Of a stretch of DNA of 64,000 nucleotides, positions 9,051-62,140 are shown piece after piece. The stretch is taken from assembly GCF_016406125.1 (NCBI RefSeq), contig NZ_CP066339.1, forward strand, positions 3,782,001 through 3,846,000, written 5' to 3'. Under the pieces are notes generated by a model. That model had not been told where the DNA came from and made no database searches. It worked only from the letters and a program-made list of their open reading frames with translations. Numbering within the stretch: position 1 is the stretch's first letter; each line of letters opens with the position of its first letter. The DNA comes from Alicyclobacillus sp. SO9. GTDB taxonomy: Bacteria; Bacillota; Bacilli; Alicyclobacillales; Alicyclobacillaceae. Both the position numbers and the translations under genes were made by a program.

Positions 9051-9302
9051 AAAATCTTCGAACCTCCTTGACCTCAACACTGTTCTTCTGTGATCTGCCT
9101 TGGCGCAGCGCCTATAGTCATTCCATTCATAAGCTGGATTTCCCTACCTTTCCATACCATAAAATGAAACGATTTTATGTCCAATTCTCCTTCAGTCGAC
9201 ATTATAAATTGACCTCCAGAAACAGTAAGTTGAGTGGAACAAAGACCACTCGCTGTGATACGATGTGACAGAATAGTTGTGCAGTGACAAGGAGGAACTC
9301 GC

Positions 9303-9653
9303 ATGGAGCGGATCGTAAAAGACCAAGTACAATCCGAACTGGATAAATACGCAAATCAGGATCTCTATATTCACCTGGAAACTACAAACGGAGCTTATGC
9401 TACGCATAATTCTGAGAGCAAGATGAACGTGGGAGCTTATATTCGCAACGGCAAAATCCGTTACGAACGAGGTGTGATAACTGGAAACGGCCCCCACCGC
9501 GTCGGACTGAAAATGGAAAACGGCTGGGTGTATGCGGAAGGCTTAACCGACTGGGAACTCGACAGTGAAGGAAGGCTGCTGCTGGCGGGACACGACGAAT
9601 TAGGCCGCCTGGCCGTCGCACTTGAAGTCAGCCCGCAACCATTCAGGATGTGA
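9303..9653 (+). CDS. yojF: YojF-family (DUF1806) protein
   Basis: A 116-residue soluble protein beginning MERIVKDQVQSELDKYANQD, with a small beta-rich body (GAYIRNGKIRYERG, GWVYAEGLTDWE). It matches the YojF family in length and in being directly upstream of bshB2, with overlapping stop and ribosome-binding sequences. Its job is not established; the tight coupling suggests a role with bacillithiol biosynthesis. The start ATG follows CAAGGAGGAACTCGC. Confidence 0.85.
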   Translation: MERIVKDQVQSELDKYANQDLYIHLETTNGAYATHNSESKMNVGAYIRNGKIRYERGVITGNGPHRVGLKMENGWVYAEGLTDWELDSEGRLLLAGHDELGRLAVALEVSPQPFRM

Positions 9654-9667
9654 CAGGAGGAAACAAT

Positions 9668-10336
9668 GTGGAACGGCACGTACTGGTAGTATTACCTCAT
9701 CCTGACGACGAGTCCTTTGGCGCAGGAGGTACCATTGCTCTGCATCGTCAAGCAGGTACTCCCGTCACCTATTTGTGCGGAACGCTGGGTCAGATGGGCA
9801 GGAATATGGGAAAGCCGTTTTTTGCTACAAGAGAGCGGCTTCCAGACATTCGCAAAAGTGAACTTGAGGCAGCCTGCGCAGTTCTCGATATTCAAGATTT
9901 GCGGTTCATGGGACTCCGAGATAAAACCGTTGAATTTGAAGATCCCGAAATACTGGCCAACAGAATTCTAGCAGTCATAAACGAAGTCAATCCTACTTTA
10001 ATCATCACTCAGTATCCGGGGTTTGCTGTGCACCCTGATCATAATGCGATGGGACATGCGACGGTCTTAGCTGTGGCAAAGCTGCCCAAAGAGTCACGTC
10101 CACCAGTACATTGCATGGCAATGGCGAGAAATCGCTTTGACGCGTTGGGACGGCCTGATGTTGTCGTCGACATCACTCAGACGTCTAAGACAAAGCTCAA
10201 TGCGATTCGTGCACACCGCTCGCAAAGCGAAGGGTTGCTCCAACAATTTGAAAGCGGACAAGATATGGCAGCAAAGAGGAGAGTTGAGCAATTCCTGCAA
10301 CAAGAAATGTTTTGGCTGTATCCTTTTGAAGACTAG
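9668..10336 (+). CDS. bshB2: Bacillithiol biosynthesis deacetylase BshB2 (YojG)
   Basis: A 222-residue LmbE/PIG-L-type zinc hydrolase that deacetylates GlcNAc-malate to GlcN-malate in bacillithiol synthesis. Metal-binding motif PHPDDESFG is near the N-terminus and the HPDHNAMG motif near residue 125. GTG 9668 is chosen since AGGAGG lies 7 nt upstream, giving the length of B. subtilis YojG. It is translationally linked to yojF (stop 9653). BshB2 deacetylases of this class can also act on bacillithiol S-conjugates, but that is family knowledge. Confidence 0.93.
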   Translation: MERHVLVVLPHPDDESFGAGGTIALHRQAGTPVTYLCGTLGQMGRNMGKPFFATRERLPDIRKSELEAACAVLDIQDLRFMGLRDKTVEFEDPEILANRILAVINEVNPTLIITQYPGFAVHPDHNAMGHATVLAVAKLPKESRPPVHCMAMARNRFDALGRPDVVVDITQTSKTKLNAIRAHRSQSEGLLQQFESGQDMAAKRRVEQFLQQEMFWLYPFED

Positions 10337-10448
10337 GCAGTAGAACAACATTTGAAGTGTTACAATGTTACAACCTCAGAACAGCATTAGGTGCCCGTAC
10401 ACATACCACCCCGCCGTCCCGCCGTCGTCTCTTAGTCCTTCTATACCA

Positions 10449-10479
10449 GAGAAGATAGTCTCTCTGAGACTATCTTCTC
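10449..10479. terminator. Perfect 14-bp inverted repeat between bshB2 and yneR-like gene
   Basis: GAGAAGATAGTCTC (10449-10462) and its exact complement (10466-10479) flank a TCT loop. No U-tract follows on either strand. It may be a weak terminator or mRNA stabiliser, or an operator, since each arm is also partly self-complementary. Confidence 0.5.
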
Positions 10480-10547
10480 CTCATCCTTCTCGGCAGACTA
10501 GTAATAGAGCGATATACACTACCGTCAAAGGAAGGTGTGACGCACCT

Positions 10548-10844
10548 ATGAATATCCAGATGGATGCCAAGTCACTACAATGGTTTCACGACGAACTCCC
10601 AGTGAAAAAAGGAGACGGTGTCAGGTTTTTTGTACGATATGGCGGAGAGTCTACCGTGCACCCTGCCTTTTCCTTGGGGGTAACTGTCGAGTCACCTACA
10701 AACGTCGCTACCAGTGTAACCAAGCATAATATCCTGTTTTTCGTCCGCGAAGAAGATGCCTGGTACTTTAATGGAAATGATTTAAGTGTAGTTTACAATC
10801 CAGATGAGGAAGAAATTCAGTTTCAAGTAGAATCGCTTCATTAG
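10548..10844 (+). CDS. HesB/YneR-family protein lacking cysteines
   Basis: A 98-residue protein of the Fe-S biosynthesis (HesB/IscA-like) fold as found in B. subtilis YneR: GDGVRFFVRYGG, PAFSLGV and a C-terminal YNPDEEEIQFQVE. Real A-type scaffolds carry three cysteines; this protein has none, as is usual for the YneR branch, so iron-sulfur carriage is unlikely. ATG 10548 with GGAAGGTG upstream is chosen; an extension further upstream would translate the hairpin region. Function is unknown. Confidence 0.8.
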   Translation: MNIQMDAKSLQWFHDELPVKKGDGVRFFVRYGGESTVHPAFSLGVTVESPTNVATSVTKHNILFFVREEDAWYFNGNDLSVVYNPDEEEIQFQVESLH

Positions 10845-10949
10845 ATCAGACAGCGGAGCGTTCAGGCTGCCAGTCTGAGTACGTTTATTCACCATTGCGT
10901 GTGTTCATCATCCCGTTGTTCCCTATTACGCTACCCGTGAAGAGTTAAC

Positions 10950-11000
10950 AAACGGCTGCCCCAACCTGGCTGCTAAAGACAGCCAAGGGACAGCCGTTTT
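10950..11000. terminator. Bidirectional terminator between yneR-like gene and qoxD
   Basis: AAACGGCTG (10950-10958) pairs with CAGCCGTTT (10991-10999), with additional pairing inside (CCC/GGG and GGCTG/CAGCC). It ends in TTTT on the plus strand and GTTTGTT on the minus strand, between two convergent genes. Confidence 0.75.
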
Positions 11001-11022
11001 ACGGTCAACATAACTTTACTTT

Positions 11023-11364
11023 TTACGATACGATGGAGTTAAATCCCATAATCCAAACCGACATGAATGCTATGGCGAAGGTAAAAAACAAGCCCAACAC
11101 GAGGCCCATTGCGTGATAGGCTGGCCCGTCACTCTCCGTAACGTGCATGAAGAAGAATAACTGAACGACAATCTGAAACGCTGCCAATATCACAAGAACA
11201 ACAATCAATGGTTGGAAACTCATTGAATGTGTTAATGCTAAGGAGAACGAAATACCCGTCAGCACCAAGGAAAGCAGATAGCCAACAATGTACTTTCCTG
11301 ACTTATGTTTGTGCCTTGGTGTTACTGTCTGCTGCTGGACAGATGTTCCGGTTTGTGCAGACAT
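11023..11364 (-). CDS. qoxD: Quinol oxidase subunit IV (copy 1)
   Basis: A 113-residue protein with three hydrophobic helices and the family motif VQLFFFMHV. Subunit IV of aa3/bo3-type quinol oxidases (QoxD/CyoD) stabilises the CuB centre during assembly. It is the last gene of operon 1 and starts next to the qoxC stop. It closely resembles the copy at 19987-20313, including the VQLFFFMHVTESD-like stretch. Confidence 0.92.
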   Translation of the reverse strand: MSAQTGTSVQQQTVTPRHKHKSGKYIVGYLLSLVLTGISFSLALTHSMSFQPLIVVLVILAAFQIVVQLFFFMHVTESDGPAYHAMGLVLGLFFTFAIAFMSVWIMGFNSIVS

Positions 11365-11994
11365 CTACATCACCACCCCTGACAAATAGACGATGGTAAA
11401 AATGAAGACCCAGACAACATCCAGAAAGTGCCAATAGAGGTTCACAATGAACACCTTTCGAGAGGTTGCAGGCGTCAAGCCGCGTCGAGCCACGTTAATC
11501 ATTGTTAGAAGCATCCATACAATGCCAATGGAGACGTGCGTTCCATGTGTTCCTACGAGGGTAAAAAACGCAGACAGAAAGGCGCTGCGTTGCATGGTTG
11601 CTCCGGCCAGTACGTCCGTTGCAAATTCATGGGCTTCAAAGCCGATAAAAGACAAGCCCAGTAAAATAGTCACAATCATCCAGCTGATAACTGCCCTCTT
11701 GTTTCCATTGCGCATAGATAGGGTTGCAAGCCCGCCTGTAAAACTGCTCGTTAACAAAATGAACGTCTCTGAGGTAAAGCCGGGAACGTCGAACAGTTGA
11801 TGAGCTGTAGGACCGCCGTCTGTATGAGTTCGAAGCACCAGATAGGTGGCGAACAGACACCCAAACAGCAGCATGTCCGTTGCAAGAAAAATCCAGAATC
11901 CCAGGATTTTAACGGAGTCGTTGGGAGTTTGGTACTCCAACGGCAGCTCAGACATAGCAGCGCCTTGCTTGAGATGAGTTTCTGAGACTGCCAT
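11365..11994 (-). CDS. qoxC: Quinol oxidase subunit III (copy 1)
   Basis: A 209-residue membrane protein with five helices, beginning ILGFWIFLATDMLLFGCLFA and containing FTLVGTHGTHVSIGIVW, both typical of heme-copper oxidase subunit III. It has the five-helix form of quinol oxidases (CyoC/QoxC). ATG follows GGGGAGGTTATAAGCT. It overlaps the operon order qoxA-B-C-D tightly, with 3 bp to qoxB and none to qoxD. Confidence 0.94.
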   Translation of the reverse strand: MAVSETHLKQGAAMSELPLEYQTPNDSVKILGFWIFLATDMLLFGCLFATYLVLRTHTDGGPTAHQLFDVPGFTSETFILLTSSFTGGLATLSMRNGNKRAVISWMIVTILLGLSFIGFEAHEFATDVLAGATMQRSAFLSAFFTLVGTHGTHVSIGIVWMLLTMINVARRGLTPATSRKVFIVNLYWHFLDVVWVFIFTIVYLSGVVM

Positions 11995-17379: not shown

Positions 17380-19353
17380 ATGCCTGTTGACATCAAGAAT
17401 TTCCTAACTCACTTCTTCGTAACCGGTTACCCGCTGATTTATGGAGCCGACGCGTCGATTATTCTGGCCACTGTCGCCATCTTGTTTGTCCTGACTTATT
17501 TCAAGAAATGGAAATGGTTGTGGACTGAATGGTTGACAACGGTGGACCACAAAAAGATAGGAATTATGTACCTTATTGCAGCGCTGCTCATGATGTTTCG
17601 CGGCGGTGTCGATGCAATTTTGATGAGGACCCAACTCATGTTGCCGAACATGCACTTCCTGGGGCCCCAACACTACAATGAAATCTTCACAACGCACGGC
17701 ACCCTGATGATTTTGTTTGTTGCAATGCCTTTCATCTTTGCACTTTTCAACATCGTTGTTCCGCTGCAAATTGGCGCACGAGACGTCGCGTTTCCGTATC
17801 TCAATGCGATTAGTTTCTGGCTGTTCTTCTTTGCCGCCTTATTGCTCAATCTCTCGTTTGTCATCGGCGGCTCTCCGGATGCAGGATGGTCCAGTTACCC
17901 TCCACTGGCAGGCGCTGAATTCGACAAAGGACCAGGAGAAAACTACTACCTTTTGTCTTTGCAAATCACGGGAATTGGGAGTATGGCAACCGGAATCAAC
18001 TTTCTTGTCACAATTTTAAAGATGCGGGCACCTGGTCTTACTTTAATGCGTCTCCCTCTGTTTACATGGAGTGTTGTCGGAGCTTGTATCCTCATTATTG
18101 TTTCGTTCCCGGCACTCACTGCAGCCCTGGCCCTGCTCCTGATAGACAGAGTTGCAGGCGCCCACTTTTTCACGATGCTCGCGGGCGGAATGCCCATGAT
18201 GTACGTCAATTTGTTCTGGATTTGGGGGCATCCAGAGGTATACATCGTGGTACTGCCGGCATTCGGTGTGTTTTCCGAGGTAGTTGCCACCTTTTCAAAG
18301 AAACGGATTTTCGGTTACACATCAATGGTAGCCTCCATCATGGTGATTACAGTTATCAGCTACTTTGTCTGGGTTCATCACTTTTTTACGATGGGTGCGG
18401 GACCAGGTGTCAACAGCTTTTTTGCCCTTGCCACCATGGCAATCGCAATTCCAACTGGTGTCAAAGTCTTTAATTGGCTGTTCACGATGTACCGCGGCCG
18501 GATACGAATAACGGCACCAATGCTCTGGACCCTTGGTTTCATTCCCAACTTTGCTATCGGCGGGGCTACGGGTGTTCTGCTGGCTGTTGCACCAGCAGAT
18601 TATCAGTACCACAACAGCTACTTTCTCATAGCCCACTTTCACCAGGTACTCATTGGTGGAACCATCTATGGAATGCTTGCAGGGATGTACTACTGGTGGC
18701 CAAAGATGTTTGGTCACAGGCTCTCTGAAGGGTTGGCGAAACACGCGTTCTGGTGGTTTAACCTTGGCTTCTACATTTGTTTCATGCCTCAGTATGCCCT
18801 TGGTCTGATGGGCATGACGCGGCGGATTTACACCTATCCGAAGGGACTGGGATGGGGGCCGTACAACTTTATTGCTACCGTCGGCGCCTACATGATGGCC
18901 ATTGGGTTTGTCCTTATTGTCGCAAATGTGGTCTACAGTGCCTTTTACGGCGAGCGCGATACAACGGGAGACATCTGGGATGCACGCACACTGGAATGGT
19001 CACTGCCATCGCCTGCTCCTCACTACAATTTCGCCGTTATTCCGCATGTGGACAGACGAGATGCATGGTGGGTCATGAAACAGGAACGCAAGGAGGGGAA
19101 GACAACCCTTGATTTACAGCAGGAACCAATACGCCCAATCCACATGCCGAACAATTCAGGAAGACCCTTCATCCTGGGCGTCTGCTTCTTTACTGTGGGC
19201 TTCGGGTTCGCTTTCAGCTGGTATGCGCTGGTTGTTCTTGGCTTCTTGGCAGTCGCCGTGCTGTTACTCGTGAGGTCCTTTGAATACGAGGATTCACACT
19301 ACATTCCGGTTGAAGAAATCAAAGAAACTGAAGCAGCTTACGGGAGGTTGTAG
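17380..19353 (+). CDS. qoxB: Quinol oxidase subunit I (copy 2), heme-copper catalytic subunit
   Basis: 657 residues. It contains all catalytic motifs of the first copy: THGTLMILF, GHPEVYIVVLPAFG, HHFFTMG and HNSYFLIAHFHQVLIGG, with the GHPE glutamate. Transcribed 21 bp after qoxA2, with AAAGAGGTGTATCG before ATG. Differences from copy 1 are spread along the length and concentrated in the N-terminus and the C-terminal tail. It should form a second proton-pumping quinol oxidase, perhaps used under other oxygen or pH conditions. Confidence 0.96.
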   Translation: MPVDIKNFLTHFFVTGYPLIYGADASIILATVAILFVLTYFKKWKWLWTEWLTTVDHKKIGIMYLIAALLMMFRGGVDAILMRTQLMLPNMHFLGPQHYNEIFTTHGTLMILFVAMPFIFALFNIVVPLQIGARDVAFPYLNAISFWLFFFAALLLNLSFVIGGSPDAGWSSYPPLAGAEFDKGPGENYYLLSLQITGIGSMATGINFLVTILKMRAPGLTLMRLPLFTWSVVGACILIIVSFPALTAALALLLIDRVAGAHFFTMLAGGMPMMYVNLFWIWGHPEVYIVVLPAFGVFSEVVATFSKKRIFGYTSMVASIMVITVISYFVWVHHFFTMGAGPGVNSFFALATMAIAIPTGVKVFNWLFTMYRGRIRITAPMLWTLGFIPNFAIGGATGVLLAVAPADYQYHNSYFLIAHFHQVLIGGTIYGMLAGMYYWWPKMFGHRLSEGLAKHAFWWFNLGFYICFMPQYALGLMGMTRRIYTYPKGLGWGPYNFIATVGAYMMAIGFVLIVANVVYSAFYGERDTTGDIWDARTLEWSLPSPAPHYNFAVIPHVDRRDAWWVMKQERKEGKTTLDLQQEPIRPIHMPNNSGRPFILGVCFFTVGFGFAFSWYALVVLGFLAVAVLLLVRSFEYEDSHYIPVEEIKETEAAYGRL

Positions 19354-19355
19354 AA

Positions 19356-19985
19356 ATGGCAACAACTGAGGAGTCTCTTCATATCCCATCACATTCCCGG
19401 AGTAAGCCATTAGAGTACTCCACAGAGGACGGAGCCCTGCGAATATTTGGGTTTTGGGTGTTTTTGGTTACGGATATGCTGTTGTTCTCGTGTTTCTTTG
19501 CAACCTACGCGGTGCTGTACAGACACATCTCTACGGGTCCAACGCCTTCCGCAATATTTGATGTGCGCGGGTACACCGCCGAAACACTGATTTTGTTAAC
19601 CAGCAGTTTCACGTCTGGTATTGCAACCTATGAAATGCGCCGTCAAAACAAATCCGGTTTGATTACCTGGACCATTATTACACTGCTCCTGGGTTTATCG
19701 TTTATTGGACTTGAAGTCAGCGAATTCTGGTCGGATGTGGTATCAGGTGCCACAATGCAAACAAGCGCTTTTCTGTCTGCCTTCTTCACACTGGTTGGAA
19801 CACACGGCTGCCACGTCTCTTTTGGGATTATATGGATTACATCGGTGCTAATTCAAGTCATCCGCCGTGGAATTACACCTGTGACTTCGAGAAAGGTGTT
19901 TATCACCTCCCTCTATTGGCACTTTCTTGACGTGGTGTGGGTGTTTTTGTTCACCGTTGTCTATATGATTGGAGGGATGTATTGA
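19356..19985 (+). CDS. qoxC: Quinol oxidase subunit III (copy 2)
   Basis: 209 residues, the same length as copy 1, with FGFWVFLVTDMLLFSCFFAT and FTLVGTHGCHVSFGIIW. Five helices. ATG lies just after the qoxB2 stop, with GGGAGGTTGTAGAA overlapping that stop. Expected to support oxygen access and stability of subunit I. Confidence 0.94.
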   Translation: MATTEESLHIPSHSRSKPLEYSTEDGALRIFGFWVFLVTDMLLFSCFFATYAVLYRHISTGPTPSAIFDVRGYTAETLILLTSSFTSGIATYEMRRQNKSGLITWTIITLLLGLSFIGLEVSEFWSDVVSGATMQTSAFLSAFFTLVGTHGCHVSFGIIWITSVLIQVIRRGITPVTSRKVFITSLYWHFLDVVWVFLFTVVYMIGGMY

Positions 19986-38246: not shown

Positions 38247-39584
38247 TTGAAAAGCAAAACACTACGCAGGTGGACAATCTGGCTGGCTGTTATCACAATC
38301 GCAGAGGTTGGTGTTTTTCATCACTACAACCAGCAGTTGACCCCGAACAGCCAAGTCTCTCCTGTTCGAAAATACAGCCAGAGCGATTTTCATCTGATTT
38401 CAAACATTGGTACAACCAAGTTGCAACATCACCTGTATGCCCTGAGTCCGGACCATTCAAACTTTGCCTATATAACCGCAAAGAATACTTTTTTGGTTAC
38501 TGACACACAGTCTGGCAAAGTCCTTGTGAATAAGCCTCTGAGCTACAAGCCGGACTTTATCAAGTGGATTGATAACAGCCAACTGATTGTGGGAACTGAA
38601 AATCCGGACCAAAATGGGTTAAAAAACATTCGTTTTAATACGTTTGACGTGAACAGCAAAACATTCCGGTTAATTCACGTTTTTAAACAGTACAAACAAA
38701 ACGCATCACTTGAGAATGTGGCCTTCAGTCCCTATACCAATGATGTATATGTCCTCTTAGGAGGATCTAATAAATCCCTAGAATACCATTTTAACACGAA
38801 TAACACGATGTTTCCATATCCACTGTCAGGGCGATTGGTTCGGAATTTAATGGTGTCCCAAACATCCGATCAACTCTATTATCAAGATGTAGCCAACGGC
38901 CAACCCAACGTTTGGGTATATGACTTCCATACTTCAGCGAGTCACTTAATTTCAAGGGATGCCAAATTACTCCATATTAATAATAATACTTTGACCTATG
39001 CTCAGCTAAATCAAAGCGGCTCAGCAACTGTTTTAAAGACGGTTTCCAGTTGGAAAAATGGATCAAAAACACTGCTGAAGTTGTCGTCTCCAATACCCTT
39101 CTCACAGTTGTTCATGTACAAGAATCAAGTTTACCGTGTAGGGTCAACAAAAATGACGAACCTTAAAACGAAGAAGACCATCACGCTACCTGACAATCAG
39201 AGTATTGTGAATTGGCAAGGCAACTTGTACCTTCTACAGGCAAGCGGAAAGGTGTATTATTTTGACCCGTCTGCGCAAACCGGCGCAGCAACCGCCAACC
39301 AGTCCAGTGGAGGCGGAACAAGGCCAGCCGGATCGTCCAAGAAATCCAACAGCGGTAACACAGGTTCGTCCTCATCATCCGGCGGCCAAGGCGGTTCTTC
39401 ATCCGGCAATCAGGGCGGCGGCCAGAGCAGTCAAGGCGGTTCTGGAGGGGGGAGCACCGGTACGTCTGGTTCAACGGGATCGACCGGTTCATCCGGCACA
39501 TCATCAGGCTCAGGAAACTCCGGAGGATCTGGCAGTTCCGGCGGCTCTATTACAGGAAACAGCATCATCACGCCGAGCAAATAA
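38247..39584 (+). CDS. Exported beta-propeller-like protein with Gly/Ser-rich tail
   Basis: 445 residues from TTG. A signal anchor (TIWLAVITIAEVGVFHH) precedes a repeat-rich body resembling a TolB/WD40-type propeller, with blades such as HLYALSPDHSNFAYITAKN and NVAFSPYTNDVYVLLGG. About 95 terminal residues are Gly/Ser/Thr-rich. No enzyme motif seen. It follows the NAGPA gene by 125 bp and ends at a strong terminator. It may be a wall-spanning scaffold or sensor. Confidence 0.7.
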   Translation: MKSKTLRRWTIWLAVITIAEVGVFHHYNQQLTPNSQVSPVRKYSQSDFHLISNIGTTKLQHHLYALSPDHSNFAYITAKNTFLVTDTQSGKVLVNKPLSYKPDFIKWIDNSQLIVGTENPDQNGLKNIRFNTFDVNSKTFRLIHVFKQYKQNASLENVAFSPYTNDVYVLLGGSNKSLEYHFNTNNTMFPYPLSGRLVRNLMVSQTSDQLYYQDVANGQPNVWVYDFHTSASHLISRDAKLLHINNNTLTYAQLNQSGSATVLKTVSSWKNGSKTLLKLSSPIPFSQLFMYKNQVYRVGSTKMTNLKTKKTITLPDNQSIVNWQGNLYLLQASGKVYYFDPSAQTGAATANQSSGGGTRPAGSSKKSNSGNTGSSSSSGGQGGSSSGNQGGGQSSQGGSGGGSTGTSGSTGSTGSSGTSSGSGNSGGSGSSGGSITGNSIITPSK

Positions 39585-39618
39585 ACAATAGACCAGATGC
39601 GGTCTCATGAATCGATGA

Positions 39619-39653
39619 TAAAACCGGCACAATGTCCCGCGTGCCGGTTTTTT
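39619..39653 (+). terminator. Strong rho-independent terminator
   Basis: AAACCGGCAC (39621-39630) pairs with GTGCCGGTTT (39641-39650), followed by TTT, giving a six-T tract. It closes the propeller gene and marks the left border of the repeat array. Confidence 0.9.
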
Positions 39654-39697
39654 GTCCTCAACCTGCCTCGCGGATGAATGGCTCCCGTTCCCTGTCC

Positions 39698-40838
39698 GGC
39701 GCGCGTTGGTTAGGGATCCTTTTGCTCCCTATCACGACGCGCGCCAAAAAATAGTGATCCATTCGATCACTATTGCAAGCGGGCCGTCTTGAATAGGGAT
39801 CCCGTTGCTCCCTATCACCCGCGCTCCATTCTGCCGCCTCCCACATTAGGGATCATTTATGACACTAACGTTCCCGGGCACGGACCATTAGGGATCTTTG
39901 GGATCCCAATCCCAGTGGGCCAGCACCATTAAGGATCATTGCGATCACTAACCGCCGCACGCCAGTCCTGACAGCCTGCGGCGGCAGCGGGATCGACAGG
40001 ATGGAACGGGTTTGAACAAGACATAAGCGGAATGACGGAATTTATTAACTTAGGATACTGTTACATCCAGTTCGATGCACGGCAGACCCGGTGCAGGTTC
40101 TTCGTCTGGGCTCAGTTCTCCGAAATGTCAGCGCGCGCTGGTTAGTGATCCTTTTGCTCCCTATCACGACGCGCTCCAAAGAATAGTGATCCATTCGATC
40201 ACTATTGCAAGCGGGCCGTCTTGAATAGGGATCCCGTTGCTCCCTATCACCCGCGCTCCATTCTGCCGCCTCCCACATTAGGGATCATCTATGACACTAA
40301 CGTTCCCGGGCACGGAGCATTAGGGATCTTTGGGATCCCAATCCCATTGGGCCAGCACCATTAAGGATCATTGCGATCACTAACTGCCGCACGGCCAGTC
40401 CTGCCAGCCTGCGACGGCAGCGGGATCGACAGGATGGAACGGGTTTGAACAAGACATAAGCGGAATGACGGAATTTATTAACTCAGAATACTGTTACATC
40501 CAGTTCGATGCACAGCAGAGCCGGTGCAAGTTCTTCGTCTGGGCTCAGTTCTCCGAAATGCCAGCGCGCGCTGGTTAGTGATCCTTTTGCTCCCTATCAC
40601 GACGCGCTCCAAAGAATAGTGATCGATTCGATCCCTATCCCCAGTAGCCGTCCAGAATAGGGATCCCGTTGCTCCCTATCACATACGCCCGCCTCTGCCC
40701 CCTCCCACATTAGGGAGCTTTGCGATCACTAATGTTCCCGGGCCCGGAGCATTAGGGATCTTTGGGATCCCAATCCCATTGGGCCAGCACCGTTAAGGAT
40801 CATTGCGATCACTAACCCCGCACGCCAGTCCTGCCAGC
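39698..40838. repeat. Tandem array of about 432-bp units built from GATC-centred hairpins (non-coding)
   Basis: Two full copies and one partial copy: first units begin near 39698, 40130 and 40563 (the TAG(G/T)GATCC landmark is at 39711, 40143 and 40576, periods 432 and 433). Each copy contains about six short palindromic modules of the type TTAG(G/T)GATC-N4/5-GATC(A/C)CTAA. The best is a perfect 10-bp hairpin AATAGTGATC / GATCACTATT with loop CATTC (39750-39774 and 40182-40206). About ten GATC sites occur per unit against fewer than two expected. Spacers include GCGGGATCGACAGGATGG and TGACGGAATTTATTAAC. Copies 1 and 2 differ at scattered positions; copy 3 changes inside several stems. Minus-strand open frames inside are by-products of the repeats. 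Function unknown. Confidence 0.9.
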
Positions 40839-40923
40839 TTCCTCTTCCTCTTCCTCTTCCTCTTCCTCTTCCTCTTCCTCTTCCTCTTCCTCTTCCTCTT
40901 CCTCTTCCTCTTCCTCTTCCTCT
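40838..40923. repeat. Hexanucleotide microsatellite (TTCCTC)n, about 14 copies
   Basis: About 14 uninterrupted copies of TTCCTC end 26 bp downstream of the galE stop codon and directly cut off the third GATC unit. On the galE strand this is a purine tract (GAGGAA)n that could form triplex DNA or act as a slippage site. Confidence 0.95.
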
Positions 40924-40948
40924 CTTTGCTTCTGCCCCAACGCGCTGT

Positions 40949-41944
40949 CTAGTTGCCCGCGTAGCCTGCAGGATGAGACTTGTGCCACTTCCAGGCTGTA
41001 GCTACCATGGTCTCCAGATCGTCGAATTGCGGGTTCCAGTTCAGCGCCCGCTTTGCTTCGTTGGACGATGCCACTAAGACTGCGGGATCGCCTGCCCGTC
41101 TATCTGCTTTTTCCGCTGGAATCGCTATTTCTGTAACTTTACGTGCGACTTCGATAACCGTCTGTACCGAGAATCCGTTACCGTTCCCCAAATTATAGGA
41201 CTCTGCTGTTACCTGGCCTGAGCGCAGCCGCTCAACAGCTAAACGGTGGGCACTGGCTAAATCCATGACGTGAATATAATCGCGGACACAAGTACCGTCT
41301 TCTGTGGGATAATCCGAACCGAAAATGCTGACCTGTTCCCTCTGACCCAATGCAGTCTGTAGAATAATGGGAATCAGGTGTGTTTCTGGATTGTGATCCT
41401 CTCCAATAGGCAAGTCCGGATGTGCCCCTGCAGCATTAAAATAACGCAGCCGAACTGACTGTAAGCCATAGGCTTCATAAGACCAGTCCATCATCTTCTC
41501 TATTGCCAGTTTCGTTTCACCATAAGGATTGGTTGGAGTTTTACGATCACGCTCATCAATCGGCATTCTTTCAGGCTCCCCATACACGGCTGCCGTTGAC
41601 GAAAACACTATCCTCTTAACTCCTGTTTCAACCATGACTGAAAGCAAGCGCGTCGTCGCACCAACGTTGTTTTCATAGTACTTGAGAGGATTTTGCACAC
41701 TCTCGCCGACCAAGGAGTTGGCTGCAAAGTGAATCACAGAATCGACCTCATGTTGCCGTATAATCTTGCGCATTTGTTCTGACTCTCTGATGTCGCAGTC
41801 ATAAAACGGAACACCATCCAGTACTGCCTCTCGATGACCTGTTGTGAGATTGTCAACCACAACGACTTGCTCCCCGTGACTGACCAGTTCAGCCACTGTA
41901 TGACTTCCGATATAACCAGCTCCGCCGGTAACTAAAACAGACAT
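40949..41944 (-). CDS. galE: UDP-glucose 4-epimerase
   Basis: 331 residues. Interconverts UDP-glucose and UDP-galactose with bound NAD. Rossmann motif VTGGAGYIGSH at the N-terminus, the SSTAAVYG serine region, catalytic YGETK (Tyr and Lys) and the substrate region RYFNAAGAHP. ATG follows GGGGAGGACTGTTCA. Stands alone; provides precursor for surface polysaccharide. Confidence 0.96.
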   Translation of the reverse strand: MSVLVTGGAGYIGSHTVAELVSHGEQVVVVDNLTTGHREAVLDGVPFYDCDIRESEQMRKIIRQHEVDSVIHFAANSLVGESVQNPLKYYENNVGATTRLLSVMVETGVKRIVFSSTAAVYGEPERMPIDERDRKTPTNPYGETKLAIEKMMDWSYEAYGLQSVRLRYFNAAGAHPDLPIGEDHNPETHLIPIILQTALGQREQVSIFGSDYPTEDGTCVRDYIHVMDLASAHRLAVERLRSGQVTAESYNLGNGNGFSVQTVIEVARKVTEIAIPAEKADRRAGDPAVLVASSNEAKRALNWNPQFDDLETMVATAWKWHKSHPAGYAGN

Positions 41945-43154: not shown

Positions 43155-43226
43155 CACTACAGTCACTACAGTCACTACAGTCACTACAGTCACTACAGTC
43201 ACTACAGTCTCTACAGTCACTACAGT
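43155..43226. repeat. Nine-bp tandem repeat CACTACAGT x8 at the SDR 3' end
   Basis: Eight back-to-back units; unit seven has one change. The last unit (43218-43226) contains the stop codon of the SDR gene, so the repeat on its strand reads (ACTGTAGTG)n with TAG in frame each time. It looks like serial duplication of the gene end. Not coding beyond the stop. Confidence 0.95.
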
Positions 43227-44008: not shown

Positions 44009-44024
44009 CTGTATTTCCCCTTTC

Positions 44025-44064
44025 ATCCATCATCCATCATCCATCATCCATCATCCATCATCCT
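44025..44064. repeat. Seven-bp tandem repeat CATCCAT, five full copies plus a partial one, upstream of the SDR gene
   Basis: Five full CATCCAT units and a partial sixth unit lie 17 bp upstream of the chosen GTG start and touch the alternative ATG. A seven-base period shifts frame or promoter spacing with each copy gained or lost. Confidence 0.9.
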
Positions 44065-48821: not shown

Positions 48822-48867
48822 AGCCAGTCTACATTCATGTTATCCCTAGTTGAAAGAGGAGATAACC

Positions 48868-50223
48868 ATGAAAGATTGGAAAAAAGCGGAGGATATTGCA
48901 GCGTACAGGGTACAACTAATCTCCCCATTGTTAGCAGACGGACTCGATGGAGCGAAGGTCCGGGACATCAAGGCTCAGATCTGTCAACAGCACGGTGTCT
49001 CTGAACGGAGTTTACGCCGCTATCTGGCTCAGTATCGCAAGCATGGATTTGAAGGACTCAAGCCAAAAGGAAAGCAGCATTTCCACTCATCCTCGTCACC
49101 GTTTAAAGACCTCATCGAACAAGCCATTCTGTTACGCCGTGAAGTGCCAAGCCGTAGTATCTCGCAAATCATTCAAATTCTGGAGTGGGAAGGCAAGGCG
49201 CTTCCTGGACAACTGAAACGCAGTACACTTCAAGAGAAACTAGCGGAACGCGGATATAGCGCAAGGCACATGCGTATGTATGCGGAGACAGGGATCGCAG
49301 CGCGCCGGTTTCAAAAACGGCATCGTAATCAGCTGTGGCAGTCAGATATTAAACATGGTCCCTACCTCCCCATCGGTCCGGGAGGAAAGAAGCTGCAAGT
49401 CTACCTGGTAGCGATGCAGGATGACGCAACACGCTTTGTATTACATGCCCAGTTTTACCCCACTATAGACCAATCCATCGTTGAAGATTGCTTTCGGAAA
49501 TCCATCCAGAAGTATGGGGTACCTGAATCTGTGTACTTCGACAACGGCTCTCAATATCGCACCAAATGGATGTCCCGAACCTGCTCTAAATTGGGGATCA
49601 GACTTCGTTACACAAAAAGTTATTCGCCAGAATCCAAGGGGAAAATTGAGAGACTGAATAGAACGATTGACACATTTCTCAGCGAGGTGTCGTTGAACAA
49701 TCCTCAGACACTAGAGCAACTCAATGAACAATTCCAAGTCTGGTTAAGTGAGTGTTATCAACATCGTCCACATGCCAGTCTGGACGAAAATGCCAGTCCT
49801 GAAACCGCCTACCGCAGTGACCGAAAGGCGTTACGCTTTACCACCCCTGAGGCTGTAGCAGATGCCTTCCTGCACGCGGAAAAGAGAAAAGTAGACAAGT
49901 CTGGCTGTATCAGCTTCATGGGTAAAAAGTATGAAGTGGGCCTTTCGGTAATTGGACAAGCAGTGGATGTAATCTACGACCCGGCGGACATCAGCCAACT
50001 TACCATTGAATGTTCGGGCCACAAACCGTGGCAGGTCAAAGAATTATCTATCGGAGAATCTGCAGGCCAGCGGCCTCCACTTCCATCGCATTTGGACACT
50101 CAACCTGCAAAGTCCTCCCGCCTTCTGGATGCAGCAAAGGAGCAGCATCAACAGCGCCGTGAACGAACGACACCCGCAGTTCGCTACGAGGGGCTATGGG
50201 AGGGGGAAACCGAGCATGTTTGA
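48868..50223 (+). CDS. DDE transposase with integrase core (TniA/TnsB/IstA-like)
   Basis: 451 residues. N-terminal HTH (GVSERSLRRYLAQYRKHG), then a retroviral-integrase-type core with Asp160 (LWQSDIKHG), Asp225 (VYFDNGSQY) and Glu261 (KGKIERLNRT), a D-35-E spacing, and a C-terminal Mu-type beta-barrel (KVDKSGCISFMGKKYEVG). ATG 48868 follows GAGGAGATAACC. The last eight bases overlap the ATPase gene. All catalytic residues are intact, so the enzyme may be active even though its ATPase partner is broken. Confidence 0.92.
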   Translation: MKDWKKAEDIAAYRVQLISPLLADGLDGAKVRDIKAQICQQHGVSERSLRRYLAQYRKHGFEGLKPKGKQHFHSSSSPFKDLIEQAILLRREVPSRSISQIIQILEWEGKALPGQLKRSTLQEKLAERGYSARHMRMYAETGIAARRFQKRHRNQLWQSDIKHGPYLPIGPGGKKLQVYLVAMQDDATRFVLHAQFYPTIDQSIVEDCFRKSIQKYGVPESVYFDNGSQYRTKWMSRTCSKLGIRLRYTKSYSPESKGKIERLNRTIDTFLSEVSLNNPQTLEQLNEQFQVWLSECYQHRPHASLDENASPETAYRSDRKALRFTTPEAVADAFLHAEKRKVDKSGCISFMGKKYEVGLSVIGQAVDVIYDPADISQLTIECSGHKPWQVKELSIGESAGQRPPLPSHLDTQPAKSSRLLDAAKEQHQQRRERTTPAVRYEGLWEGETEHV

Positions 50224-51037
50224 ATCCTTTTACGAATTGCAACGCACCCCCTTTTCGCGAGATATCCCCACAGACGAACTCTATATACCGCCTGAACTCA
50301 AGGAGATTCTCGGCAGACTCAAGTATGTAGCAGAACGGCAATGGTTTGCTGTGGTAACGGGCGATTGCGGTATCGGCAAGACAACCACCGTTCGCAGATT
50401 CACAGAAGTCCTTTCCCAGTCGGCGTTTAAAACCCTGTACCTCTCAGATTCTAAACTAACGCCTCGGCATTTCTACAAGGGAATGTTGGAGCAGTTGGGG
50501 TATGAGGCAAAATTTTATCGTGGAGACGCCAAACGGCAACTTCATCGTGAGATTGAGATCATGCGTAGGGTTCATGGCCTACAGCCGGTGGCCATCATTG
50601 ATGAGAGCCATCTGTTGGATAGAGAAATGTTAGAAGAACTCAGGTTCCTACTCAATTTCCGTATGGACTCACAAAGCCCGATGTCCCTCATACTCGTGGG
50701 ACAAAATGAATTATGGGAACGTCTGAACTTACAATCCTACACTGCCATCCGGCAGAGAATTGACTTACAATGCAAACTGGAGTACTACGATAGAGCGCAC
50801 GTTGGCGAGTACATTGAACGACACATGGCCTACGCTGGGGCAGAGCACACCATCTTTTCCGAGAAGGCGGTTGATGAAATTTATCGCTATTCTGCTGGTG
50901 CACCCAGGCTCATTAACAAAGTCTGTACGCATTCTCTACGTAAGCGTCAAACCACGGACACATTGCAGCATCATGCCACATCTGCCAGTATTGAAAAGCC
51001 CCACCGGCTAGCCAGCGGGGCTGTTGTATAGGGTTGT

Positions 51038-52610
51038 CTATCGACGATGTCGGACTTGTTCCGGCAAGCCGTCGGACCAAGGTAACAGGGTCGCCAGTGA
51101 ATCTTCAACGGTCTGGTCGAGGTTAGGCAATTGTTCAAAAAGGTATTCGAGATAGGCAAACGGGTTCAGACCATTTTCTTTCGCTGTTTCCACGATGCTG
51201 TAAGCGACAGAACTGGCTCTGGCTCCGCTGGGGGCGTTACTAAACAGCCAAGACCGTCTTCCGAGAACGAAGGGTTTTATGGAGCGTTCCGCACGATTGT
51301 TATCTATCTCCAGGTTCCCGTCTTCCAGAAATGTAACAAGCTTCTCCCATTGGTTCAAGCAATAGTTTACTGCCTCGCCCAAGGTACTCTTGGGGAGTAC
51401 ATTGTCTTTCTGAGTATGAAGCCATGCTGAAAAAGCGTCGAGAACAGGTCGACTCTGTTTCTGGCGCTCCTTGTACCGTTTCTCTGTACTGGCGTCCTTC
51501 AGTCCACGTTCGATCTTAAACAGTTTATTGCAGAAGTCCAATCCTTCTTTGGCAGCCGTTGGACCTTTGCGTTTGCCTGCAGGCAAAGCTTTCAAAGCCT
51601 CATCAAATTTGCGCCGTGCATGACTCAGGCAACCCGACAGTCTCACATTGGGAATGTCATTGTACCCGACATAACCATCCACGTGCAGATATCCATGAAA
51701 TCCTGCCAGAAAGTTCATTGGATGTTCTCGTCTGCGTGTTTCCTGGTAGTCATAGAGAACAATGGGAGGTCCGTCCCGTCCACTGCGGTATAGCCACATG
51801 TAGGACTTGCTCTCTGCAGCTCTCCCAGCTTCGTGTAACACTTGGACCGTGGTCTCGTCTGCGTGGAGATACGTTCTTTTCAACAACTCTTCATGCATGC
51901 GCTCATAGATTTTGGCCAACCACTGATTCGCTCCATATAGAACCCAGTTGGCCAGCGTCTGCCGAGACAGCGGGATTTTCTGACGCTCGAACTGTTGTTC
52001 CAAGCGATATATGGCATGCCTTGTACGTATTTCTTATCCAGAATGTAGGCCAGCGTCGATGGGGAGGCCAAACTTTTCGGAATCACCGGCTCTGGCATCT
52101 GCGCCTTCACAATGGGGGTATGGATTTCATTACGTTCGCAGCGGCGACAACTATAGATGTATTGTACATGCTCAATGACTTTCACCTGCGCAGGAATGAT
52201 CTTCAGTTCTCGTCGAGTTTCTGTGCTCATCTCATGTGTCGGATTGCCACAACAAGAACAGATCTGCTCCTCCTCAGGCAGCCGATATTCAATACGCTCC
52301 ACAGGCAGGTCTTTGAGTAGCTCTTCCCGTTGGCCAGTTTGCTTCTTCTTTCGTTCGTACGTGATGGTTTCCTTTGGCTCTTCCGGGGTAGGTCTGCTTC
52401 CGACTCTGCCTCATTAAACAGCCGTGTTTGCAATGCGTCCGGATTCGTGCGTTCGCTGGATGCACCAAAACGCTTATGCTGAGCAAGACGGAGTTTCTCT
52501 TCCAGCCACTCTACCTTAGAATGTAACTCATCGTTTTTGTGCTTTAATGTTGTATTTTCATGCTGCAAAGCAGCGACCTCTTCTGTGGTCAAATCAGGTG
52601 ATTTACTCAT
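51038..52610 (-). pseudogene. tnpC: IS66 transposase TnpC, two frameshifts
   Basis: Three overlapping frames together give a full IS66 transposase. The N-terminal leucine-zipper part (VAALQHENTTLKHKNDELHS) breaks near 52385, where an extra base splits EADLP from the continuing [13 protein letters not shown]. The zinc-finger part ([16 protein letters not shown]) runs to about 52010, where GMP loses the next frame ([11 protein letters not shown]). The catalytic part contains [11 protein letters not shown]-like [21 protein letters not shown] and [15 protein letters not shown]. Sequencing indels are the alternative to real decay. Confidence 0.9.
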
Positions 52611-52678
52611 GCTATATCACTTCGACAAAACCTCAGAAAACCCTTGTTGTGACAAGGATTTTCGTGCTTTTTATCTAA

Positions 52679-53038
52679 CTAAATGATGGTCCTTGCTTTC
52701 ACTTTCGGATGTGCCTTTTTCTGGTGGACCGATAGCCCATCCAGAAGCCATCGCAACTCCCGCTGACCCATGACAATGGGACCCGTATGAGAGGCATCCG
52801 GCCACTGAAACCGGCCTTTCTCCAACCGGCGATAATGAATCCAAAAGCCGTTATGCTCCCAGTGCAAGACCTTGAGTTTGTCACGGTTTCGGTTACAAAA
52901 GACAAAAAGACACGGAGAAAAGGGGTCTAGGTGCAGAACCTCCTTCACCAGAACAGAAAGCCCGTCTATAGATTTCCTCAGGTCCGTAGGTCCTGGTGCT
53001 AAATACACACGCTTCTCCAGGTCAAACTCACCAAACAT
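52679..53038 (-). CDS. tnpB: IS66 accessory protein TnpB
   Basis: 119 residues. Starts MFGEFDLEKRVYLAPGPTDL, with LRKSIDGLSVLV and LFVFCNRNRDKLKVLHW, the invariant IS66 Orf2 signature. Needed for IS66 transposition, function not well defined. Start codon touches the tnpA stop. Confidence 0.95.
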   Translation of the reverse strand: MFGEFDLEKRVYLAPGPTDLRKSIDGLSVLVKEVLHLDPFSPCLFVFCNRNRDKLKVLHWEHNGFWIHYRRLEKGRFQWPDASHTGPIVMGQRELRWLLDGLSVHQKKAHPKVKARTII

Positions 53039-53358
53039 TATTCCGCCAACACCTGAACAACCTGTTTGAGTAGTGAGCGGTTGAACCCGTTATGTACTTC
53101 GACGGACGCCGCCCCCACGTGAACAACGAGTGCTGGTTCGGCGTCCTCTACCGAGTCCTCAACCTGAACGGATAGTAGCTTTACTCTGGGTGATGCAGTG
53201 GCATTGGTGGACGTCTCCTTGTCGAACTTCCGAGCCCAACGACGGAACTGTTTCACGTCGAGGTTGTGCTCCCTACACCAGGCCGCCGCGGTTTCACCAC
53301 TTTCTCGAAACTCTTCAACAAGCTTTCTCCAATGATTTCGCACTTCTTCTCTGGACAT
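53038..53358 (-). CDS. tnpA: IS66 accessory protein TnpA
   Basis: 106 residues with an N-terminal HTH (FRESGETAAAWCREHNLDVKQ) as in IS66 TnpA proteins and a variable C-terminus. Starts 84 bp inside the right IS end. Probably DNA-binding. Confidence 0.92.
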   Translation of the reverse strand: MSREEVRNHWRKLVEEFRESGETAAAWCREHNLDVKQFRRWARKFDKETSTNATASPRVKLLSVQVEDSVEDAEPALVVHVGAASVEVHNGFNRSLLKQVVQVLAE

Positions 53359-58965: not shown

Positions 58966-60252
58966 TTAGGCGACGTTCTGTGTTCGTTCTAGATGAACAG
59001 GTCCTAGCATTTTAACCGGATCATACGAGACTTCTTTACGTCCTAGTGCAAACAAAACTCGAATCAATCGACAACTCAGCGCAATGGCTGACTGCATTTT
59101 CTTAAGTGGATTCTCAGTTCTTTGCGTGTAGTATTCATGTTGCAACCGAAACTCCGTGTTTTTTGCTAATAACGGGATGACGCACCGGAACAATAGTGAC
59201 CGCAGTCTTGGACGACCACGCTTAGTAATCGTCGTTTGCCCTTTATGTTCCCCAGAACTGTTTTCCTTCAGATTCAGTCCTGCCAACTTTTGAATTTGTC
59301 TGGGATTGTCGTAGCGTGTGAGCTCCCCGACTTCGGCTAGAAATCCAGCCACCGTAACTAGTCCCACCCCAGGTACGCTCAGCATGTTCTGTGCTCCAGG
59401 TATCTCACTGAGCAACTGCTCTACTTCACTCAGGAGTTGGTCTAGCTGCTTTTGGTACAAGTCATATTGACCTAGCAGAATCTCCAGCTCTCGGTGAGCC
59501 ATCTTCAGTCCTTCCGTGAGTCCAATAGATTGTTCAGCCATCTCTTTCAAGAAATTCGCTTTACTTAATCCAACACCTCGTGAAATGCCACCCTGTCTCC
59601 ACTCACAGACAATGTCAAGCGCGGTCATTTGCTCAACATCTGCTGGACACGGGAACTTGTGCAAACACACGAGAGCCGCCTTTCCTTCCCAGTCCTTAAA
59701 GACCTCTGTGAACTCTGGAAAGTAGCGCTCCAACCAGTTGTGGATACGTGCTTGAACTCGTTTTAAGTCTACGGACAAACGGTCTCTTTCGTTCATTCCT
59801 ACCCGCAAATCTGCGTAGATATCTTCCGGAATGTTGGGTTCGGAGTACCGTCCATCCTTGACTAAAAGTGAAATTACACGTGCATCCTTGCGGTCGTTCT
59901 TTGTTGGACTATTGTCTTCCAACTCTTTTGTTTTCTTGACATGAAACGGGTTCACCACCACGACACGAATACCCTCTCGACGCAGGAACTGAGCGAGATT
60001 GATCCAATAGTGCCCTGTGGGTTCAACGCCGAAAACGACGTTGTCACAGCTGTGTTTCAACATGAGGGTCCGAACCCACTTCTTGAGTCCCCGAAATCCA
60101 CGTCTTTCGTTCTTGAAAGTCAACGGAGAACCCAGCTCTATTCCACGAACGTCACAGGCACGTGCTACATGTACCTTCTTGGAAATATCTGCTCCGATGA
60201 CCAAAGTGGACTCTGTAATCCTGCGAATCTTGGTGTTTTGCGTTATACTCAT
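58966..60252 (-). CDS. IS110-family transposase (DEDD recombinase)
   Basis: 428 residues. RuvC-like domain with Asp22 (VIGADISKKVH), Glu77 (VEPTGHYW), Asp120 and Asp123 (TKNDRKDARV), a coiled-coil middle, and the C-terminal Tnp_20 domain (VPGVGLVTVAGFLAEVGE) with the serine region ENSSGEHKGQ. All four acidic residues and the serine are present, so it is probably active. AGGAGGT before the ATG lies in a hairpin stem (60266-60317). Element ends were not located. Confidence 0.95.
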   Translation of the reverse strand: MSITQNTKIRRITESTLVIGADISKKVHVARACDVRGIELGSPLTFKNERRGFRGLKKWVRTLMLKHSCDNVVFGVEPTGHYWINLAQFLRREGIRVVVVNPFHVKKTKELEDNSPTKNDRKDARVISLLVKDGRYSEPNIPEDIYADLRVGMNERDRLSVDLKRVQARIHNWLERYFPEFTEVFKDWEGKAALVCLHKFPCPADVEQMTALDIVCEWRQGGISRGVGLSKANFLKEMAEQSIGLTEGLKMAHRELEILLGQYDLYQKQLDQLLSEVEQLLSEIPGAQNMLSVPGVGLVTVAGFLAEVGELTRYDNPRQIQKLAGLNLKENSSGEHKGQTTITKRGRPRLRSLLFRCVIPLLAKNTEFRLQHEYYTQRTENPLKKMQSAIALSCRLIRVLFALGRKEVSYDPVKMLGPVHLERTQNVA

Positions 60253-61751: not shown

Positions 61752-62140
61752 ATGGTTGCATCGTGGATAGGAAGTATTGATTTTGTGATGGTAATCATTT
61801 TATACATATTGCTGGCGTTAGGCTTACCTTTAGGAGACTTCGCTATGGGTGGGAAGCATAGAACCCTTCCTACGGCGTTACGAATCGCATCTATGGTATC
61901 AGTATTCGTGCAGATACTTGCAATCATGGTCCTCCTACAACTTGGACACATTGTGTCCATCCGGTTACCATCCGGTTACCATCCGGTATAGCCAGAGGGC
62001 TTGGGTACTTCTTCACTTTTTATCTTGGCTTAAACACGTTTATGAATCTGCTGTCCAAGAGTAAAAAGGAAAAGTTCTATATGACTCCACTATCGTTTGT
62101 AGCAGCAATTTGCTTTGCAATCGCAATATTTGCTTACTAA
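61752..62140 (+). pseudogene. Membrane protein gene put out of frame by an 11-bp tandem repeat
   Basis: The first frame (VASWIGSIDFVMVIILYILL onward) runs into TAG at 61990 right after three copies of CCATCCGG(TTA). Removing one 11-bp unit puts the upstream frame onto IARGLGYFFTFYLGLNTFMN and PLSFVAAICFAIAIFAY, ending at TAA 62138-62140: a protein of about 124 residues with four helices and a conserved LSKSKKEKFYMTPL loop. So the gene is intact with two repeats and off with three. Either a phase-variable gene or a recent mutation. Confidence 0.8.
61957..61989. repeat. 11-bp tandem repeat CCATCCGGTTA (two full copies plus a partial third)
   Basis: Units at 61957-61967, 61968-61978 and a diverging third from 61979. 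Period 11 changes the reading frame with each unit. Lies inside the membrane-protein gene at 61752-62140. Confidence 0.9.

Follow-up and report, generated by a model that had tools for sequence, protein, structure and literature searches.

The parS centromere of plasmid F (sopC; ParB_F/SopB) is described as twelve 43-bp repeats with 16-bp inverted repeats (PMC6238139). The RacA ram sites of Bacillus subtilis are described as dense near the origin (PMC6593407), and NBS and SBS (SlmA-binding sites) as scarce at the terminus (PMC4331003, PMC4726725). RefZ-binding motifs (RBM), in their published account (PMC6657595), comprise five near-palindromic sites placed relative to oriC, at positions conserved across Bacillus. 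The SegB sites of Sulfolobales are given as tens of scattered chromosomal palindromes bound by a segregation protein, with a 13-bp motif lying mostly within genes (PMC12284271). REPs are characterized as palindromes of 20–40 bp (PMC3733652).

Here we describe a non-coding tandem array in a 64,000-nucleotide stretch of DNA from Alicyclobacillus sp. SO9, presumably a spore-former of the Bacillota (the whole stretch is hereafter called the window), together with its copies across that genome. Like sopC, the array consists of tandem dyads about four helical turns apart (43 bp in sopC, 41–42 bp here), yet sopC is one plasmid partition centromere, whereas we found 57 chromosomal clusters, with six distinct dyads per unit and one 53-bp gap. 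The clusters are numerous and origin-dense, as ram sites are; phased six-dyad units are absent from the ram description, the two being compared by description only. NBS and SlmA sites likewise form sets of tens of palindromic sites that are sparse at the terminus, but these are single short palindromes. The RBM share a near-palindromic form and a placement relative to oriC, but number five at conserved positions, against more than 100 units with a patchy species distribution here. SegB sites also are scattered palindromes, unlike the intergenic arrays in lying mostly within genes. REPs and other palindromic intergenic repeats are similar in location and, like the arrays, are a target of IS110-family elements; they differ from the long multi-dyad units found here, with their fixed spacing and arms that do not covary. 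Among the matches listed in a search of the open-access literature, no report of such repeats was found.

Architecture of the array and its genomic copies

The window array (Table 1) had been described as 432-bp tandem units in two full copies and one partial copy, each with about six modules and about ten GATC sites. This description held: the copies contain 18 modules and 10, 10 and 9 GATC sites, compared with a whole-window density of 2.0 per kb, and the third copy is a core that has lost only its linker. The module is a 21-bp dyad with the consensus TAGKGATC-N5-GATCMCTA, to which 3 of the 18 window modules conform exactly, 13 with one mismatch and 2 with three. The perfect stems noted earlier are present, the AATAGTGATC/GATCACTATT stem being without mismatch in module 2 of copies 1 and 2, but many other stems are imperfect and the arms do not covary within a module type; 'hairpin' was the wrong word. 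Spacers are near-identical among the three window copies; the spacer variation stated earlier is seen between loci and not inside this one.

Table 1 Coordinates of the array, its flanks and the elements inserted in related units (window positions unless a genome stretch, L, or contig, C1, is named)
Feature	Location	Strand	Description
Three-copy array, non-coding	39699-40838		Period 432-433 bp; TRF and repeat finding
Repeat unit 1	39699..40130	+	Six-dyad core and linker; 21-bp modules start at 39711, 39752, 39794, 39847, 39889, 39930
Repeat unit 2	40131..40563	+	Six-dyad core and linker; modules start at 40143, 40184, 40226, 40279, 40321, 40362
Repeat unit 3	40564..40838	+	Whole core, without linker; modules start at 40576, 40617, 40658, 40711, 40753, 40794
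Module 2 of unit 1	39752..39772		Exact dyad TAGTGATC-N5-GATCACTA
CTTCCT tandem repeat	40838..40923		Perfect, 6 bp, 14.3 copies; adjoins the shortened third unit
Left flanking ORF	38247..39584	+	445 aa; convergent with the right-hand ORF
Right flanking ORF	40949..41944	-	331 aa; UDP-glucose 4-epimerase GalE-like by eye
IS110-family element copies	L077 ~9820-11450; L099 ~9140-10830; L104 ~8775-10480		
Other element	L065 ~8780-10304 (C1 84779-86303)		IS256-like transposase (by eye); splits a fourth unit after module 2

Using the window array as query, we obtained 68 matches in its own genome (5,286,134 bases in two contigs). The exact module TAGNGATC-N5-GATCNCTA occurs at 174 places there, at none when the pattern is read backwards, and was not found in 58 other genomes of the same order. 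Freeing the loop to 3–8 bases left the count at 174; the loop is therefore always 5 bases, where the preliminary description had allowed 4 to 6. Right-hand half-sites of modules 1 and 3 frequently read GAGC in place of GATC.

A six-module template identified 101 units in 57 intergenic clusters and none in the reversed sequence, within 1.27 Mb of own-genome stretches mostly selected for containing matches; arm mismatches totalled 2–13 across the 101 units (limit 18). No unit was present in 28 own-genome stretches picked blind to matches (352 kb). Clusters contain one unit (25 clusters), two (22), three (9) or five (1), and the units lie in both orientations (49 and 52). The exact modules fall inside six-module units in 160 of the 174 cases and in partial or interrupted units in the other 14, the farthest being 2.9 kb from a six-module unit (174 of 174 checked). 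Units grouped by spacer similarity are found at distant loci. Similar loci also occur in pairs 4–5 kb apart (C1 280039 and 285376; C1 227886 and 231595), which suggests local duplication.

Start-to-start gaps within a unit are ~41, 42, 53, 42 and 41 bp. Across 93 units, the first gap is 41 bp in 92, the second 41–42 bp in 90, the third 52–53 bp in all 93, and the fourth and fifth 41–42 bp in all 93; these counts are bounded, as the template accepts only gaps of 40–43 and 51–54 bp. Without a gap limit, 378 of the 389 gaps of at most 130 bp between well-matching neighbours measure 41–42, 53 or 93–95 bp, the last class being 53 plus 41–42 bp spanning a weak module. Expressed in 10.5-bp turns, the mean gap classes are 3.9, 4.0, 5.0, 4.0 and 3.9. 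The best-fit period of these gaps is 10.4 bp (0.925), with 13.6 bp nearly equal (0.900).

Short tandem repeats accompany arrays in two genera, namely CTTCCT beside the window array (40838-40923) and GTGTGCCTGGG in a related genome (G024, L163 ~19073-19557), and may be marks of unit gain or loss. Elsewhere, the window holds near-perfect short tandem repeats at 43155-43226 (9 bp), 44023-44063 (7 bp) and 61957-61987 (11 bp), as well as probable transposase genes, IS21-, IS66- and IS110-like by eye, at 48850-53358 and 58966-60252.

Conservation and independence of the arms

When each cluster was represented by a single unit, arms averaged 0.85 identity, loops 0.66 and spacers 0.52, compared with 0.37 in the 20 bp outside the unit. 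Among the locus pairs with spacer identity below 0.4 (313 of 1,596; mean 0.35, the chance level), arms retain 0.80 and loops 0.51. Neutral copies would erode arms and spacers equally, so the difference speaks for locus-by-locus selection of the half-sites. Spacers of equal length number 3.7 of 5 among these 313 pairs and 2.7 of 5 in the next bin; the spacing of the modules is probably also under selection.

Across the 57 representatives, we counted 2088 Watson–Crick arm pairs, compared with 2122.6 ± 10.2 when right arms were permuted among modules of one type (z = −3.4). At most stem positions the Watson–Crick fraction equals the expectation for independent arms, and pair 6 of module 4 is the sole position much above it (0.51 versus 0.39). 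The fourth bases of the exact modules are T/A in 61, mixed in 64, G/C in 42 and of other kinds in the remaining 7. When module types are pooled, symmetric modules are in excess (103 of 167, versus ~85 expected) because module types differ, for example T/A in module 2 and G/C in module 3. The lack of arm covariation within a module type argues against RNA or cruciform stems and for half-sites that are read independently by protein.

The preliminary description had recognized no CRISPR, REP or rRNA pattern, and for CRISPR and REP-like repeats we agree: spacers are partly homologous between loci (0.52), modules are position-specific, the stems show no compensatory changes and no neighbour gene recurs. 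TIGR arrays, as far as they are described in PMC12045711, were rejected together with CRISPR on the same grounds of spacers, modules and neighbours; such arrays would show one or two repeated words, unrelated spacers and an effector gene close by. A phage or plasmid origin was likewise rejected, one own-genome unit having no match among 50,697 phage records or 72,556 plasmid records (blastn, E ≤ 1e-5). The single-module pattern occurred in 36 viral stretches and a two-module pattern in 2 genome_contigs stretches, which on rescanning with the consensus gave isolated matches or none; both scans may omit the own genome and its near relatives.

Placement, insertion elements and sister arrays

Contig C1 opens with what we take to be a dnaA-like gene, followed by dnaN-, recF- and gyrase-like genes (by eye), and its GC skew switches near 2.65 Mb. 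A distance of 0.6 Mb from dnaA takes in 31 of the 53 clusters with an exact module (12.2 expected, P = 3e-8), and 1.3 Mb takes in 40 (P = 1e-4), the terminus half holding 13; this set of clusters is complete for the genome (174 of 174 modules). The replication arms are unequal, with 35 clusters on the right and 18 on the left. Merging the 57 clusters by spacer similarity into 42, 25 or 9 lineages gave origin P values of 4e-5, 8e-5 and 0.007. Clusters lie between convergent genes in 25 of 57 cases (background 105 of 520, P = 2e-4) and between divergent genes in 4 (background 128 of 520, P = 0.0015), the background being intergenic regions of the same stretches counted with a crude ORF caller. 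Any bias of the units towards one direction of replication is weak at most (36 of 57, P = 0.06). The earlier suggestion that random intergenic scatter, with no conservation of stems, would make a dedicated function unlikely is half borne out: the modules do form a genome-wide intergenic family, but their placement is non-random and their arms are conserved.

Protein self-comparison and inspection by eye of the genes up to 3 kb from the 57 clusters revealed no gene family peculiar to the flanks; the families that recur are common ones (by eye) and the IS110 transposase. In the same comparison, no parA/parB-type family recurs beside the arrays. With no companion gene family, a binding protein would act in trans. 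The genome does encode a Noc-type protein (ParB_N and HTH_ParB at C1 5187415; best PDB matches are nucleoid occlusion proteins, E 2e-78), and the Spo0J and Noc proteins adjoin a ParA-like gene (Soj by eye) near dnaA. For the NBS consensus, 1.27 Mb of own-genome stretches contained no exact, one one-mismatch and seven two-mismatch sites (control word: 0, 0 and 1), the one-mismatch site at 4962274 lying outside the mapped arrays. For the parS consensus, own-genome stretches contained an exact site at 5185639 inside the spo0J-like gene and one-mismatch sites at 5182260 and 5185792, none of them in an array. Because the motifs differ, we rejected the idea that the arrays are the parS or NBS sites used by the resident Spo0J and Noc.

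A 1.65-kb element with an IS110-family transposase (Pfam) splits three units (Table 1), its copies matching at 100% (rounded). All three full copies in the genome sit in module 2 of array units, inserted at the same half-site in whichever arm fits (by eye); one copy, at 4968 kb, has a transposase frame that differs from the others near the C-terminus. Entry of IS110-family elements into palindromic intergenic repeats is described (PMC11208160), as is REP targeting by other elements (PMC1525189). The element with its three full copies in module 2 also provides a naturally occurring target for this family of RNA-guided recombinases.

Self-comparison alone identified tandem non-coding units of 332–404 bp in the first 200 kb of G024, a genome of another genus in the same family. 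Most of its modules retain the 21-bp frame but carry different arms, for example TAAGATAC-N5-TATCCTTA and TAAGGCAC-N5-GATACCTA, and one recurring module measures 22 bp; these sister arrays use GATAC/GTATC-type arms. One G024 unit as query matched 47 places in G024 and 46 in G002, none in 57 other genomes (the Alicyclobacillus sp. SO9 genome included), of which G017 is a third species of the G024/G002 genus. A G024 unit likewise had no match in the 72,556 plasmid records (blastn, E ≤ 1e-5). Across the order, the own type was thus found in 1 of 59 genomes and the sister type in 2, the other 56 matching neither query. G048 begins at a DnaA-like gene, and its first 140 kb showed no repeated array; none of this kind was seen in the 120–200 kb viewed in G020, G010 and G007, stretches that may be off-origin. 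Sister-module patterns, made by eye from the arrays themselves and allowing 4 mismatches, matched 232 times in 19 array stretches and 0 times in those stretches reversed; other G024/G002 stretches totalling 480 kb gave 23 matches, including one run of at least 4. Between their dyads, G024 arrays (L159, L162, L163) share a further recurring motif, GATACCCC / GGGGGTACC, whose two forms are present in 1 of 101 and 0 of 101 own cores, respectively.

The commonest gap in the sister arrays is 53 bp, others being near 62, 73, 84, 94, 98 and 105 bp. With repeated units removed from the gap lists, the 33 distinct values of G024 and G002 together fit best to a period of 10.6 bp; each genome alone peaks at 10.7 bp, with 8.9 bp near behind, and the gap classes of 44, 98 and 152 bp fall out of phase.

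Loci in both relatives were collected with the one G024 query, 11 of 64 candidates being scored in G002 and 11 of 48 in G024; both sets may be incomplete. By coarse and noisy skew, the G024 origin lies between 0.18 and 0.6 Mb, and 5 of its 11 scored loci are at 98–574 kb. The G002 origin lies between 3.3 and 4.1 Mb by coarse skew, with 3 of 11 scored loci at 3.6–4.0 Mb and the rest up to ~2.3 Mb away; this genome shows no evident crowding towards the origin. The own cluster at 4438961 and a G002 array at 5698 kb (L202) each have a cysteine-synthase-like gene (by eye) as a neighbour, and two more G024 flanking genes have relatives 2–6 kb from own clusters at 4439 and 5014 kb. Array position may possibly be conserved between genera, as such shared neighbours would suggest, although this likeness is not separable from chance because the own genes compared are mostly cluster-near.

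Candidate roles of the arrays

What was computed directly is the module with its spacing, the stronger conservation of arms than of spacers, the independence of the arms, the placement and the sister arrays in another genus. From them we infer both protein binding and its job. That a dimeric protein binds the arrays appears quite likely; that their role is chromosome organization or segregation is evenly poised. The combined reading, in which the units are docking arrays of a putative dimeric DNA-binding protein, likely for chromosome organization or segregation, is about an even call. Of the readings offered in the preliminary description, a protein-binding array or segregation site fits best and is partly supported, as far as sequence can indicate. 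In our best reading, the arrays are analogous to, yet distinct from, parS and NBS.

The putative protein would be a sequence-specific dimer encoded away from the units. Each 21-bp dyad would be read by one dimer, with a half-site of approximately TTAGKGAKC, and the near-whole-turn gaps would put six dimers on almost one face of the DNA across ~240 bp. Six dimers aligned in this way could cooperate in binding, or could bridge or bend the DNA. As each locus has one to five units and the clusters are crowded towards dnaA and sparse at the terminus, the likely role would be centromere-like or one of anchoring the nucleoid. The phasing part of this proposal is weakened by the nearly equal 13.6-bp fit, the close 8.9-bp fit and the out-of-phase gap classes of the relatives.

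The main rival, which we consider unlikely, is a selfish satellite-like repeat whose dyads would be recognized by a protein responsible, in trans, for copying or moving it. The architecture would then be kept for mobility and not for the host, and convergent gene pairs would be the least harmful insertion sites. Such a repeat is consistent with the 57 clusters in both orientations, the groups of similar units at distant loci, the patchy occurrence in related species, the simple repeats adjoining some arrays and the avoidance of divergent gene pairs. It remains a serious rival because of that patchiness, the dispersal of units and the unclear placement in G002. The persistence of arms where spacers have diverged to chance points instead to selection on copies in place, and the flanks without a peculiar gene family and the enrichment of own-genome clusters near the origin also argue against it. 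Titration or regulatory sites, be they transcription-factor decoys or arrays controlling neighbouring genes, would account for many copies of operator-like dyads. We regard this as improbable, given the preference for convergent over divergent gene pairs and the absence of a recurring target gene family in the flanks.

A transcribed structured RNA, or DNA that forms cruciforms, draws on fold energies: individual units are more stable than their dinucleotide shuffles by 2.4 to 6.1 SD (8 of the 57 representatives), and the uncontrolled RNAalifold consensus fold of 57 units is −57.9 kcal/mol. The pooled excess of symmetric fourth bases points the same way. Palindromes alone can explain the fold energies, and arm pairing within module types falls below the shuffled level, which contradicts the structured RNA proposed earlier; against Rfam, positions 39500-41000 gave no match at the gathering score, the two sub-threshold ones reaching 17.1 of 37 and 15.4 of 46 bits. 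We consider this explanation very improbable. A GATC methylation-sensitive control region of the Dam/SeqA type, also raised earlier, would fit the 9–10 GATC sites of each unit, and the genome has two D12-class methylase genes (C1 1091538-1092275 and 5160407-5161057, the second ~4 kb from the 5165-kb cluster). The case is weak, and we hold it to be highly unlikely: GAGC replaces GATC in many arms, and the sister arrays use arms of another type.

The docking-array reading has weaknesses of its own. The genome also carries Spo0J, Noc and canonical parS; no gene family is peculiar to the flanks, and 56 of the 59 genomes of the order matched neither query. Similar units occur at distant loci, as in mobile DNA, and the placement is imperfect, with 13 of 53 own clusters in the terminus half, unequal replication arms and no evident origin enrichment in G002. 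Doubtful, though worth stating, is a more specific form of the docking-array reading: a lineage-specific and fast-evolving centromere-like or nucleoid-organizing system, acting beside ParABS and Noc and parasitized by IS110, whose motif and protein would have co-diverged between genera.

The arrays offer a ready bait, as one synthetic unit could retrieve the putative binding protein in a single pull-down. If the docking-array reading is true, some bacteria would have a second large set of docking arrays besides ParABS and Noc, and the motifs of these arrays would change fast, as eukaryotic satellite centromeres do.
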